Assembly: GCA_012964335.1 (NCBI GenBank)
Contig: DTUF01000022.1
Coordinates: 94,195-157,113 of the forward strand
Source of the DNA: Candidatus Poseidoniales archaeon
GTDB lineage: Archaea > Thermoplasmatota > Poseidoniia > Poseidoniales > Thalassarchaeaceae
Direction: 5' to 3'
DNA: 62,919 nucleotides
Shown here: in pieces, positions 58,562 to 62,775 of the stretch
Layout: each line of letters starts with the position of its first letter
Position numbering within the stretch: the first letter of the stretch is position 1
Notes under the pieces: model-generated
The model's database searches: none
Told to the model about the DNA's origin: nothing
What the model saw: the letters and a program-made list of their open reading frames with translations, nothing else
Made by a program: the position numbers and the translations under genes

Positions 58562-59551
58562 TCATTGTGTGATAGTTGTTCCAGCGACCCCTCTCATTGC
58601 TTCAATAACATCACCGGGTTTGCATAGAGATACTGATAATTCGGGATTTTTTTGTTTAGCAAATAGCATTGCTTCAATCTTTGGCCCCATACTACCCTCA
58701 GGAAATTGTCCGTCATCTAGATATTGCTTAGCTTCGGAAATTGACATTGTTGTAATTTGACGTTCATTATCACTACCGAAATCTAATTTCACCGAATCTA
58801 CAGCAGTTGAGATGAAAAGAAAGTCAGCATTTAATGACACAGCCAACAAAGCGCTTACTCGGTCCTTATCAATCACTGCTTCAACCCCTTGAATACCTCT
58901 ATTATGGCAAATCACTGGAATACCTCCACCTCCAGCACATAACACCACTGCTCCAGCAGATATCAGGGCCTCAATGGCATCTGAATCAATGATTGAAATC
59001 GGCTTAGGAGAAGCAACAACCCGGCGAGGACCCACATCAACATCAGTAATCCCAATTTTCCAATTACTTGGTACCGCATCTAAGTTGTCTATAATAGGGC
59101 CAATCGGTTTTGTTGGCTGACTAAATGCGGAATCATTTGCATCAACTTCAACCCGGGTAAGTAATGTTGCAACCTGTTCGTGTCTACCTCTTGCCTGTAG
59201 AATGTTATCTAAGTTAGTAGCAATCTCGTGACCAAGGGTTCCTTGAGTTGCTGCTACCCAATTATCTAGGCCGAGCGGCTGTGGTGTGAAATTTGTGGAT
59301 TCTACTCTTCTGCGGTCAAAAAGGGATTCCTCCATCAACAATAATTCGCCTACCTGTGGCCCGTTCCCATGTGTTATTACAACCCTGATACCGGCCTCTA
59401 ATAGGTCAACTACATCCTCTAGAACATCATCCATTACTGCTTCTGCTGCGCTGCGTGCTTCAGCCCCTTTCAGAGCAGGGTCAGAAAGGGCATTTCCGCC
59501 AATCGCATAGACCGCTAATCGGGGAGATGACCTCAGTGGAACATCAGTCAT
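58562..59551 (-). CDS. arcC: Carbamate kinase
   Basis: A 329-residue amino-acid-kinase-fold enzyme. VYAIGGNALSDP (phosphate loop), ITHGNGPQVGELL, and the C-terminal GSMGPKIEA and GDVIEAMRG are signatures of carbamate kinase, with VLCAGGGGIPV as a substrate strand. The enzyme makes ATP from carbamoyl phosphate in the last step of arginine fermentation, or makes carbamoyl phosphate in reverse. Ornithine carbamoyltransferase is encoded at 15995, 42 kb away; no arginine deiminase is in the window. The ATG at 59551 gives full length. It is divergent from asnS, with 95 bases between. Confidence 0.92.
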   Translation of the reverse strand: MTDVPLRSSPRLAVYAIGGNALSDPALKGAEARSAAEAVMDDVLEDVVDLLEAGIRVVITHGNGPQVGELLLMEESLFDRRRVESTNFTPQPLGLDNWVAATQGTLGHEIATNLDNILQARGRHEQVATLLTRVEVDANDSAFSQPTKPIGPIIDNLDAVPSNWKIGITDVDVGPRRVVASPKPISIIDSDAIEALISAGAVVLCAGGGGIPVICHNRGIQGVEAVIDKDRVSALLAVSLNADFLFISTAVDSVKLDFGSDNERQITTMSISEAKQYLDDGQFPEGSMGPKIEAMLFAKQKNPELSVSLCKPGDVIEAMRGVAGTTITQ

Positions 59552-59646: not shown

Positions 59647-60984
59647 TTGACGGTGGCCAAGGATGTGTGGGTCAGTGATGTGCATGATGGTACCTTTGAT
59701 GGCCAAGAAATTGAGTTGAAAGGATGGGTTCATAGAACTCGTGGCTCAAACAAAATTTGGTTCCTTGTTTTACGCGATTCAACAGGTATTGTACAGTGTG
59801 TAATCAAGCGAAATGATGTCGGTGATGAATGTTTTGAAAATTTGAAATCTGCATTGATTGAGGCAAGTGTGACTATCACAGGTAAGGTCAATGTCGATGA
59901 AAGAGCCCCTGGTGGCCATGAAATGGTGGTTACGGGTGGACAAATTATTGGTGCTGTCAACGCTGACAACCCATTCCCAATAACCGAGTCAGCAATGGAA
60001 GGTGCTGAAGGAGGGGAGACTGAATTCTTATTGGATAATCGTCATCTCTATCTCAGAACTAACCGCATGACAACAATGTTGAAAATTCGCTCATCTGTAT
60101 TTGGAGCCATTCATTCTTACTTTAGAGACCTTGATTTTATTGAGTATCACGCACCAAATTTTGTGGCTGGTGCAGTAGAAGGCGGTTCAACTTTGTTTGA
60201 AGTACCTTATTTTGGGCGAAAAGCGTATCTTACCCAATCATGGCAACTATACGCTGAAGCAGCAATGCCTGCGCTTGAAAGACTGTACACAATTGCACCA
60301 TCATTTAGAGCTGAAAAAAGCAGAACCAGACGTCACTTGACTGAATTTTGGCATGCTGAAATGGAAATTGCATGGGGAGGGAACGCAGATGTTATGGAAC
60401 ACGGCGAGTCGTTAGTTCGTAACATCGCATCAACCTTACTTGATGAGCGGTCAGATGAATTGCAAAGCCTTGGCAGAGATTTGGACCTCGTTGCTAGATA
60501 TGCTGACACTCCTTATCCTAGAATTAGATATGATGAAGCAATTGAAACTCTACAAGGCATGGGTGTTGATATTGAATGGGGCCAAGATTTGGATTACTCA
60601 AAAGAGAAAATCCTGACACAAGATTTTGATGTACCACATTTCCTAACCCATTATCCTAGGATTGCAAAACCATTCTACCATAGGCCAGACCCAGATGACC
60701 CGAAGTATGTTCTATGCCATGACCTCCTAGCACCTGAGGGGTATGGTGAGATAATCGGAGGAGGTGAGCGCACATGGAGTGAAAAAGAAATTCTTGAGCG
60801 TATAGACGAGGAAGGTACCCCACGTGATGCTTACGAATTTTACATTGATGTGCGACGATACGGTGGTGTACCACATGGTGGATTTGGACTTGGAGTTGAC
60901 AGGGTATGCTCTTGGTTAGCAGGTGCAGACCACATCCGAGAAGTGATTCCTTTCCCGCGTGACTCACGTAGAGTAACCCCGTGA
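59647..60984 (+). CDS. asnS: Asparaginyl-tRNA synthetase
   Basis: A 445-residue class IIb synthetase: OB-fold anticodon-binding domain (about residues 22-110), LDNRHLYLRT linker, then the catalytic core. GGSTLFEVPYFGRKAYLTQS and YTIAPSFRAEKSRTRRHLTEF (motif 2) are diagnostic, and GGFGLGVDRVCSWLAG is motif 3. The related AspRS often has a similar PFPRD-type end, but the LTQSWQLYAEAA and EFLLDNRHL segments are of the archaeal AsnRS kind. So asparagine is probably charged directly here, rather than through an Asp-tRNA amidotransferase. The gene is divergent from arcC and starts with ATG or GTG near 59647. Confidence 0.85.
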   Translation: MTVAKDVWVSDVHDGTFDGQEIELKGWVHRTRGSNKIWFLVLRDSTGIVQCVIKRNDVGDECFENLKSALIEASVTITGKVNVDERAPGGHEMVVTGGQIIGAVNADNPFPITESAMEGAEGGETEFLLDNRHLYLRTNRMTTMLKIRSSVFGAIHSYFRDLDFIEYHAPNFVAGAVEGGSTLFEVPYFGRKAYLTQSWQLYAEAAMPALERLYTIAPSFRAEKSRTRRHLTEFWHAEMEIAWGGNADVMEHGESLVRNIASTLLDERSDELQSLGRDLDLVARYADTPYPRIRYDEAIETLQGMGVDIEWGQDLDYSKEKILTQDFDVPHFLTHYPRIAKPFYHRPDPDDPKYVLCHDLLAPEGYGEIIGGGERTWSEKEILERIDEEGTPRDAYEFYIDVRRYGGVPHGGFGLGVDRVCSWLAGADHIREVIPFPRDSRRVTP

Positions 60985-61026: not shown

Positions 61027-61365
61027 TCACATTAGAGGTGTGTCAAACCCCTCATCTAGAGGATCTGGTAAAGCAGAATCTGACAATTGAGAACTGTTAG
61101 GGGTAGTTTGTTCGGTTTTGGAAGAGGTCGGAGCCTCCCTCATTTCATTGGATTCAGGTGCTGATAATACAATAAAACTGAACATTCCAATAAACAAAAT
61201 CAGCAAGACTGCAATAGCCTCTTGCGAGATTCCACCAGCATCCTGAGTTTTCAGTGCAACTACTAGCAACATTAGAGCGACCACAAGCAAAGCTGGTGTG
61301 AGCCGCCGCCACTGCATAAACAACCGATTCGCCGGCCACTTGATGAACCCAACCCATCTGCGCAT
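61027..61365 (-). CDS. Small membrane protein with two helices
   Basis: A 112-residue protein from the ATG at 61365, with two membrane helices (TPALLVVALMLLVVAL and AIAVLLILFIGMFSFIVL) and a polar, Ser/Pro/Asp-rich C-terminal tail. The longer frame to 61479 would overlap the divergent arginine-decarboxylase-like gene and has cysteine-rich, unlikely sequence. The start is 3 bases from that gene's ATG, so they share a promoter region. It is convergent with asnS. I recognise no family; role unknown. Confidence 0.7.
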   Translation of the reverse strand: MRRWVGFIKWPANRLFMQWRRLTPALLVVALMLLVVALKTQDAGGISQEAIAVLLILFIGMFSFIVLSAPESNEMREAPTSSKTEQTTPNSSQLSDSALPDPLDEGFDTPLM

Positions 61366-61368
61366 CCC

Positions 61369-62010
61369 ATGGACTTCAAAGTCGAAACTGGACGTAGGCG
61401 AGCAGAAGGCTCCTGTACAGGCTGGTTGATGACATCCGTAGCACCATGGGGTGATACCAAAGAAGATGCGTTTGACCAATGTTTAGTTGAATTGGGTCTT
61501 GGGGATTCAAGACTCATCCGTATGGAGGGAGCAATGCTGCCAATGGGATTTGAACCATCTCCTCCTGAAGATTTGGCAATGGGTTCCCTTGTTGAATGTC
61601 ATATTGCAGAATCATACACCTACGATGGAGGCATTGCATCAGCAGGTGTTGCATGGGCACAATGCATCACTCCTGAAGGTGACGAATGTTCAATCGTTGC
61701 AACCTTATCAACAGACCAATCATACGAAGAAACTGAATTGATGCTCAAAATGAATTTGAAGCGTAAATTAGCATCTCGTGACCTTGAAGTAGTGAAACAC
61801 GAAATTGCAGTTGATGAAGTAAATGCAGCAAAGGACCACCATGGTTGTGCTCTAGCGGCGCTAATCTTACCAGATACTATGAATATGCAATCAGGACCTG
61901 TTGGAAGAGTTAGAGGTGGGTTCACGAAGAGTGCTGGAACCAGTTTCACACCCGGGTCAGGCACCAGTAAACCGGCACAGAAAACCAATAGCGGTGACTT
62001 CTCCTTCTAA
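61369..62010 (+). CDS. Pyruvoyl-dependent arginine decarboxylase homologue lacking the catalytic serine pair
   Basis: A 213-residue protein aligning over residues 27-165 with the archaeal PvlArgDC family. DAFDQCLVELGLGDSRLIR matches the conserved helix-strand, LAMGSLVECH the next strand and HHGCALAALIL the family's C-terminal strand. The family makes agmatine for polyamines using a pyruvoyl group formed by self-cleavage at Ser-Ser. Here that site (IRISSIMPP in the M. jannaschii enzyme, from memory) reads IRMEGAMLP, with E53-G54 instead of Ser-Ser, and the acid residue (Glu109 there) is also not conserved. So it is probably not a decarboxylase. A disordered Gly/Ser/Lys tail of about 45 residues follows. 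It could be a regulatory pseudoenzyme. Confidence 0.75.
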   Translation: MDFKVETGRRRAEGSCTGWLMTSVAPWGDTKEDAFDQCLVELGLGDSRLIRMEGAMLPMGFEPSPPEDLAMGSLVECHIAESYTYDGGIASAGVAWAQCITPEGDECSIVATLSTDQSYEETELMLKMNLKRKLASRDLEVVKHEIAVDEVNAAKDHHGCALAALILPDTMNMQSGPVGRVRGGFTKSAGTSFTPGSGTSKPAQKTNSGDFSF

Positions 62011-62026
62011 CTATGAGGCGCCATTA

Positions 62027-62476
62027 ATGACAGATGAACAAAGGGTTTTTTTGGTAATCCGTTGCACCTCTTGTGAGAGACATTTTGGTAGTTTAAGAAA
62101 TGATAAATCATTCCTATGCCCAGCGTGTGGTGAGCATGGAGAATACCCCATAGTTGGTCGAGCAAAAGATGGTGAAGACCTCAGAAAAAGGGTATCAATT
62201 GCCAATGTACCACCTGAACTTAGAGAAGAAATGAAACGGAAAATCAAGGTTGATGATTATCAAGACTACCAAGAAGATAGTGCATCAGCGCCTTCTTTGC
62301 TAAAACTTCTAACTAACCTAGTTGACGAGGAAGGAAAGCTCACCCTTTCCACTGTTCAAAATGAGTTAGATAGAAGGGGAATTGTGCTACCTGATGCTCA
62401 AGAATTGATTGATATGGCCGAATCTCAAGGATTACTGTTACGTGATACCACGACCGAATGGAAGTTGTTGGAATAA
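62027..62476 (+). CDS. Zinc-ribbon and winged-helix-like protein (DUF5817-like)
   Basis: A 149-residue protein starting at the ATG at 62027, 16 bases after the preceding stop. The N-terminal part has a zinc ribbon (IRCTSC and FLCPACGEHG). A hinge with KDGEDLRKRVS follows, then a helical domain ending in a winged-helix-like pair (LTLSTVQNELDRRG, LIDMAESQGLLLRDT). Small archaeal proteins with this layout have been called DUF5817, which I list from memory only. It is probably a nucleic-acid-binding factor and may be co-transcribed with the arginine-decarboxylase-like gene. Confidence 0.7.
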   Translation: MTDEQRVFLVIRCTSCERHFGSLRNDKSFLCPACGEHGEYPIVGRAKDGEDLRKRVSIANVPPELREEMKRKIKVDDYQDYQEDSASAPSLLKLLTNLVDEEGKLTLSTVQNELDRRGIVLPDAQELIDMAESQGLLLRDTTTEWKLLE

Positions 62477-62514: not shown

Positions 62515-62589
62515 GGGCCCGTGGGTTAGCCTGGCCTATGCTTGGGCGTTTGGGACGCTTAGACTCCGGTTCAAATCCGGACGGGCCCA
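62515..62589 (+). tRNA. tRNA-Pro (TGG)
   Basis: The acceptor GGGCCCG pairs with CGGGCCC; discriminator A, no encoded CCA. The anticodon loop TTTGGGA gives TGG for proline, on a stem with two G-T wobbles. The T arm is CCGGTTCAAATCCGG. Confidence 0.93.
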
Positions 62590-62775
62590 CTTTGCAATCA
62601 CTTCACCAAGGTCTGCATGTTGCATACCAGCATCCCACCTAACCTATTCTTGGCATCACTATACAGTGGTAATTGGGTATCTCCGTTGTATTGGTTCTCT
62701 CCTTCCTATCACCCACTTATGGCATAAATCCGCTCTATATTTTCCCTTGCTTTCATAGCAGTGATTTTCTAGGGG

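Follow-up and report, generated by a model that had tools for sequence, protein, structure and literature searches.

Introduction

Can a protein that keeps the fold of a self-cleaving decarboxylase serve its host once the residues for self-cleavage are gone, and if so, in what role? The window analysed here, a stretch of 62,919 nucleotides from a Candidatus Poseidoniales archaeon, raises this question with a gene for a homologue of pyruvoyl-dependent arginine decarboxylase (PvlArgDC), which we call pseudo-PvlArgDC (Table 1). An original prediction, made from the letters alone, had noted the missing Ser-Ser pair and proposed a new role for the protein, as a regulator or as the subunit partner of an active paralogue. 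Among the closest known systems are the archaeal PvlArgDCs, such as the M. jannaschii enzyme (1MT1/1N2M), Haloferax HVO_1958 and T. kodakarensis TK0149. Our analysis suggests that pseudo-PvlArgDC probably has a new role without enzymatic activity, together with a zinc-binding protein encoded next to it, and that this role is dispensable in several genera. Catalytically dead relatives of pyruvoyl decarboxylases are already known, namely the prozyme of trypanosomes (PMC5201418) and AaxB of Chlamydia (PMC2720952), as is SpeDA in Poseidoniales. In the literature that we searched on Poseidoniales and polyamines and on inactive PvlArgDC, we came across no account of a dead PvlArgDC that selection maintains throughout an order.

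Table 1. Features of the pseudo-PvlArgDC locus and of the putative agmatine genes elsewhere in the genome
Feature	Coordinates	Strand	Evidence or remark
Non-cleaving PvlArgDC homologue, 213 aa (pseudo-PvlArgDC)	61369..62010	+	ORF, Pfam, PDB sequence match, AF2 and Foldseek
Codon for R48, replacing M. jannaschii Asn47 (active site)	61510..61512	+	Arg in 81/81; N47A mutant structure is 2qqd
Codons for E53-G54-A55, replacing the Ser-Ser cleavage site	61525..61533	+	Alignment with 20 canonical relatives; S/T/C in loop 0/81
Codon for T112, replacing catalytic Glu109	61702..61704	+	T, K or S in 81/81
C-terminal tail, residues 173-213, absent from canonical enzymes	61885..62007	+	pLDDT below 50, alignments, motif tally
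Partner gene, 149 aa: zinc ribbon, helical hairpin and winged helix, DUF5817-related	62027..62476	+	Alignment, AF2, Foldseek
Divergent small membrane-protein ORF upstream	61027..61479	-	Position conserved in 55 loci (cluster 4); no Pfam match above cut-off
Aspartyl-tRNA synthetase-like gene	59647..60984	+	Pfam; upstream neighbour in this genus only
SpeD homologue (SpeDA candidate)	G000:C33:85320-85646 (= L194:5270-5698)		ESH cleavage site, without the AdoMetDC-diagnostic Pro
Second DHS-like gene (speY-like), adjoining the SpeD homologue	G000:C33:84329-85225 (= L194:4303-5265)

Fold and family of pseudo-PvlArgDC

The homology to PvlArgDC extends across the whole domain, as had been predicted. 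The window protein matches Pfam PF01862 (PvlArgDC) with 36 bits (E 8.4e-9; curated cut-off 22.7) over residues 28-167, which correspond to profile positions 14-160 of 161, and it carries the C-terminal HHGCALAALIL. By sequence, its closest solved structures are those of the M. jannaschii PvlArgDC, 1n2m (E 2.6e-4) and 2qqd (E 5.4e-4), which are the S53A proenzyme and the N47A mutant, respectively. An AlphaFold2 model built from 38 relatives has high confidence over most of residues 12-172 (core pLDDT mostly above 85), with both ends disordered. Foldseek aligns this model to 2qqd and 1n2m at E about 1e-13 and TM(target) of 0.81-0.88. The predicted fold is that of PvlArgDC and is intact, in line with the earlier expectation, and its best matches are uncleaved mutant chains. 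Against NCBIfam TIGR00286 (equivalog, EC 4.1.1.19), the protein reaches 33 bits for a cut-off of 106.95. Most of its relatives score under the PF01862 threshold, and the profile detects 6 of 244 Poseidoniales genomes compared with 142 when the window protein is the query.

The tail predicted disordered at the C terminus holds a conserved G-R-x-R stretch and a near-invariant Phe close to its end, mostly within DFSL or DFSF. Its lack of a counterpart in canonical enzymes bears out the claim that the protein has a tail of its own.

Loss of the catalytic residues

The cleavage loop reads R-L-I-R-M-E-G-A-M-L-P in the window and N-L-V-S-V-S-S-x-L-P in canonical relatives. The original reading of EG instead of SS was right apart from one extra residue, since E-G-A substitutes for Ser-Ser and makes the loop longer by one. 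Ser, Thr and Cys are absent from positions 49-58 in all 81 aligned family members from Poseidoniales; Gly54, Ala55 and Arg48 are invariant among them, and the residue before Gly54 varies (x-Gly-Ala). The region of the catalytic Glu had been read as TLS, and the alignment places the Glu109 equivalent at T112 within ATLST. A third change, from Asn47 to R48, was absent from the original prediction. All three elements, Asn47 included, are kept in 20 of 20 canonical Thermoplasmatota proteins, and Ser-Ser and Glu also in the more divergent canonical proteins and the sister-order proteins that we inspected. Asp36 and the GxxxAAL C-terminal core are retained in the pseudo-PvlArgDC family. A Ser-Ser pair elsewhere in the chain would have spoken against a lost cleavage site, but no such pair is conserved across the 81 members; the sole conserved pair of Ser, Thr or Cys residues, S114-T115 (68/81), lies in the strand that lost Glu109. 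Assembly or sequencing error and chance are ruled out as causes of the missing Ser-Ser by the presence of the protein in 142 genomes and by its uniform loop.

S53A, N47A and E109Q mutants of the M. jannaschii enzyme are present in the PDB. In Chlamydia, AaxB self-cleaves at Ser53, making the pyruvoyl cofactor, and Glu109 facilitates the cleavage (PMC2720952). With all three catalytic elements gone from pseudo-PvlArgDC, the pyruvoyl group should be unable to form by the known route. Judged from these residues, the pyruvoyl chemistry has almost certainly been lost and the protein would have no decarboxylase activity.

Distribution and selection

Of 244 Poseidoniales (Marine Group II) genomes, 142 carry pseudo-PvlArgDC, nearly all of them with an intact reading frame, and the protein occurs in 15 of 22 genera. 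In several f1 genera it is cleanly absent with synteny preserved: a gap of 330-410 nt separates the conserved preceding gene from the zinc-ribbon gene. At this syntenic site upstream of the zinc gene, no copy too diverged for detection was found in the genera without a match. Pseudo-PvlArgDC is an optional extra, and the set of genera that lost it has smaller genomes. A search of 50,697 phage records gave no relatives. One record titled Deltaproteobacteria (L073, isolate AH-558-G13) carries the Poseidoniales locus and is probably mislabelled or contaminated.

The family alignments, which cover two families of archaea, contain more than 50 invariant positions. Pairwise dN/dS within the family lies at 0.03-0.08 (Nei-Gojobori), rough values because several dS are near saturation. 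This constraint leads us to reject pseudogene decay and supports the retained role suggested in the original prediction; that pseudo-PvlArgDC still has a function is hardly in doubt. In a tree with canonical relatives, the family forms a single clade (100/100) with a stem of 4.5 changes per column and short internal branches, placed beside the short-type PvlArgDC of Thermoplasmatota, although the exact branching at the long stem is unsure, with forks left open. The M. jannaschii row of this tree agrees with the PDB alignments where the two overlap. Read from these sequences, the pattern is one of a single burst of change followed by strong constraint, which would mean repurposing, not decay.

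Source of agmatine

The suggestion that pseudo-PvlArgDC might be the subunit partner of an active paralogue found no support. It is the single PF01862 match in its genome, and neither a second PvlArgDC homologue nor an active one was found there, although a completeness of 85.5% weakens the case for absence in this one genome. In addition, no canonical copy was detected in the 244 Poseidoniales genomes, and 35 genomes with a completeness of at least 90% gave no match to the PvlArgDC profile. A prozyme-type arrangement, with an active paralogue in the same genome, is therefore not what we find.

Agmatine appears to come from an unrelated enzyme. Our checks of the genome itself rest on family searches, which found a SpeD homologue adjoining a speY-like gene, likely the agmatine/homospermidine cluster to judge by sequence. 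A gene resembling those for DDAH and arginine deiminase follows the pair (L194:3407-4222). SpeD homologues are present in 83 of 89 Poseidoniales genomes. All 24 that we inspected keep the Ser cleavage site (DESH) without the Pro diagnostic of true AdoMetDC; two further rows of the listing are wrong ORFs and stand outside the 24. Arginine decarboxylase activity, and not activity on ornithine or lysine, has been measured for SpeD proteins of Poseidoniales and marine groups II/III, whose genes cluster with speB and speY (PMC10407285). Further genes in the genome are that for TiaS, an enzyme that uses agmatine in its action on tRNA (PMC5178350), and an agmatinase-family (SpeB-family) gene. With the SpeDA, speY-like, TiaS and agmatinase-family genes present, the pathway looks complete without pseudo-PvlArgDC. 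The original prediction had tied the importance of the gene to agmatine as a precursor for polyamines and hypusine. That link is indirect, since the order uses SpeDA and pseudo-PvlArgDC is not needed for agmatine. An intact PvlArgDC and a SpeD homologue coexist in some other Thermoplasmatota, so that gain of SpeD need not displace PvlArgDC.

The downstream zinc-ribbon/winged-helix gene

The neighbour that had been noticed is a conserved gene for a zinc-ribbon/winged-helix protein. Of 80 fetched loci, 72 have it directly 3' of pseudo-PvlArgDC and in the same orientation, mostly with gaps of -4 to +38 nt; contig ends cut several of the other loci. The zinc-ribbon residues C13, C16, C31 and C34 are invariant in the alignment of the partner. 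Against DUF5817 (Pfam PF19134, cut-off 31), the window partner has no match and a Poseidoniaceae member reaches 17.7 bits, whereas four homologues located beside canonical PvlArgDC score 29.6-56.5 bits. By profile, the partner appears to be related to DUF5817, and we do not file it as a member. We found no paper on DUF5817. Foldseek of the partner gave nothing below E 0.001, and its resemblance to winged helices such as MCM8 and SSO6202 is confined to the C-terminal part.

The same pairing exists with canonical enzymes. In other Thermoplasmatota, a relative of the zinc gene directly adjoins or overlaps the stop codon of a canonical PvlArgDC gene in 8 of 20 loci (HMM, E below 1e-3), more weakly in two further loci and, by eye, in four more of these 20; in another family, the pairing is seen in 6 of 8 loci. 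The gene pair therefore existed before catalysis was lost, and the locus was inherited, which makes the Poseidoniales gene the positional orthologue of the canonical enzyme. It also follows that the pairing alone does not indicate a new joint function. Two kinds of canonical PvlArgDC are found in Thermoplasmatota (L219-L226, L147-L166, L227-L229, L232-L241): a short kind with a core of about 150 aa (VTSG...NAFD...YVAEGH) and a long kind of about 185 aa (TKG...SFE...YGYLSEHH). The zinc gene is seen beside the short kind only. The sister order within this class carries another canonical PvlArgDC, which is of the long type and has Ser-Ser, and within short flanks no zinc-gene match lies beside it.

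In the wider context, where names other than that of the aspartyl-tRNA synthetase were assigned by reading sequences, the Poseidoniales neighbourhood contains a metallo-beta-lactamase/KH-like gene of about 634 aa, which we take for aCPSF1, a proteasome beta gene and, upstream, the divergent small membrane protein. The aspartyl-tRNA synthetase takes the place of the upstream neighbour in this genus. The true start of the membrane-protein ORF probably lies downstream of the listed one, in which case the two divergent genes would share a promoter region. Two genes upstream of pseudo-PvlArgDC is an amino acid kinase family gene (window 58562-59551, -), carbamate-kinase-like by sequence reading, with a possible link to arginine or carbamoyl phosphate.

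Discussion

The history of this locus may be reconstructed as follows. The PvlArgDC gene would have started out paired with that of a DUF5817-like zinc-ribbon/winged-helix protein, as elsewhere in Thermoplasmatota. Arginine decarboxylation may have passed to SpeDA, a SpeD-derived enzyme working with SpeB and SpeY, in the common ancestor of Poseidoniales. Self-cleavage would then have disappeared from PvlArgDC (Ser-Ser to x-Gly-Ala) along with Asn47 and Glu109, and the protein would have changed very fast before coming under strong new constraint. The present form would be an uncleaved, non-enzymatic protein of the PvlArgDC fold, probably trimeric. Either the old inter-subunit pocket with its invariant Arg or the new C-terminal tail might serve as a ligand-sensing or docking element, and the docking target would be the presumably co-expressed zinc-ribbon/winged-helix protein. 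We infer the order of events, the trimer, the interaction and the ligand sensing; by gene order, the zinc protein is the most likely partner, and we think that the Arg48 pocket position and the Phe-motif tail are candidate working parts. A non-enzymatic role in partnership with the zinc protein is the best explanation overall, and we favour it tentatively. A regulatory role, as proposed in the original prediction, is possible. The more specific version is rather doubtful: a pyruvoyl-free sensor of arginine, agmatine or polyamine would control the zinc-ribbon/winged-helix protein as a nucleic-acid-binding protein, once agmatine synthesis had passed to a SpeDA acquired by horizontal transfer. 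If true, an ancient metabolic enzyme would have turned into a dedicated non-catalytic sensor or scaffold.

The strongest competitor, though an unlikely one, is a new enzyme in which the PvlArgDC pocket was rebuilt for chemistry without pyruvoyl. Its candidate site would consist of the lineage-specific invariant residues D46, R48, E76 and H78, together with the retained C77 and D36. At many positions, canonical proteins have one invariant residue and Poseidoniales proteins have another, R48 falls exactly at the catalytic Asn47, and the strong purifying selection would suit an enzyme. However, the gene-order comparison reveals no conserved metabolic gene beside pseudo-PvlArgDC, and we know of no enzyme of the PvlArgDC fold that works without a pyruvoyl group.

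It is quite improbable that pseudo-PvlArgDC acts as a prozyme-like regulator, binding the SpeDA that replaced PvlArgDC and activating or inhibiting it. A dead AdoMetDC paralogue does likewise in Trypanosoma brucei (PMC5201418), and the low in vitro kcat/Km of marine SpeDA proteins leaves room for an activator (PMC10407285). SpeDA, however, is no paralogue but a member of another family, it also occurs in genera without pseudo-PvlArgDC, and the two genes are unlinked.

The view that the gene is a functionless relic heading for loss, already deleted in part of the order, draws on its clean absence in f1 genera and on the decay of pyruvoyl arginine decarboxylases elsewhere, as with AaxB in Chlamydia (PMC2720952), but it is largely refuted by the low dN/dS, the invariant positions across two families and the intact frames, and it is very hard to maintain. 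That the protein is still an arginine decarboxylase, by cleavage elsewhere or with another cofactor, is scarcely credible: the overall fold and Asp36 are kept, but the loop has no Ser, Thr or Cys in any member, the equivalents of Asn47 and Glu109 are gone and SpeDA is already present.

In a comparison with the closest known systems, pseudo-PvlArgDC is like archaeal PvlArgDC in whole-chain homology, predicted fold, Asp36 and the GxxxAAL core and, in parts of Thermoplasmatota, in the same downstream zinc-ribbon gene. It differs in lacking Ser-Ser, Asn47 and Glu109, in the inserted loop residue, in the extra tail of about 40 residues and in its strong lineage-specific conserved residues, and it would not be the source of agmatine for its host. 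Like the trypanosome AdoMetDC prozyme (PMC5201418), it is conserved and catalytically dead, and it is related to a pyruvoyl decarboxylase that self-cleaves and serves polyamine synthesis, but the prozyme activates an active paralogue, which pseudo-PvlArgDC appears to lack, and the protein families differ. The AaxB pseudogenes of Chlamydia trachomatis (PMC2720952) are likewise PvlArgDCs that fail to self-cleave or are truncated; their inactivation is recent, limited to some strains and not via the Ser-Ser site, whereas that of pseudo-PvlArgDC is old, order-wide and selectively maintained. SpeDA shares its genomes, with arginine decarboxylase activity measured for Poseidoniales proteins, but belongs to the AdoMetDC family and is still self-cleaving and active (PMC10407285).

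Profile-based annotation can label the gene an arginine decarboxylase, and any pathway reconstructed from that label would be in error, in a host group that is among the most abundant archaea of the surface ocean. The locus also offers a clear natural example of an enzyme that was replaced and then repurposed: with another agmatine enzyme present, the displaced one has kept its place in the gene pair, has shed its chemistry and has then been guarded by selection.

The zinc gene is present in 88 of 89 Poseidoniales genomes, including the f1 genera without pseudo-PvlArgDC, so that the idea of a joint loss of the two genes, expected if pseudo-PvlArgDC served the zinc protein alone, is false. This persistence indicates that the zinc protein has a role of its own, independent of pseudo-PvlArgDC, and the gene may merit study in its own right. 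A tRNA-Pro (TGG) gene follows it directly (window 62515-62590, +).
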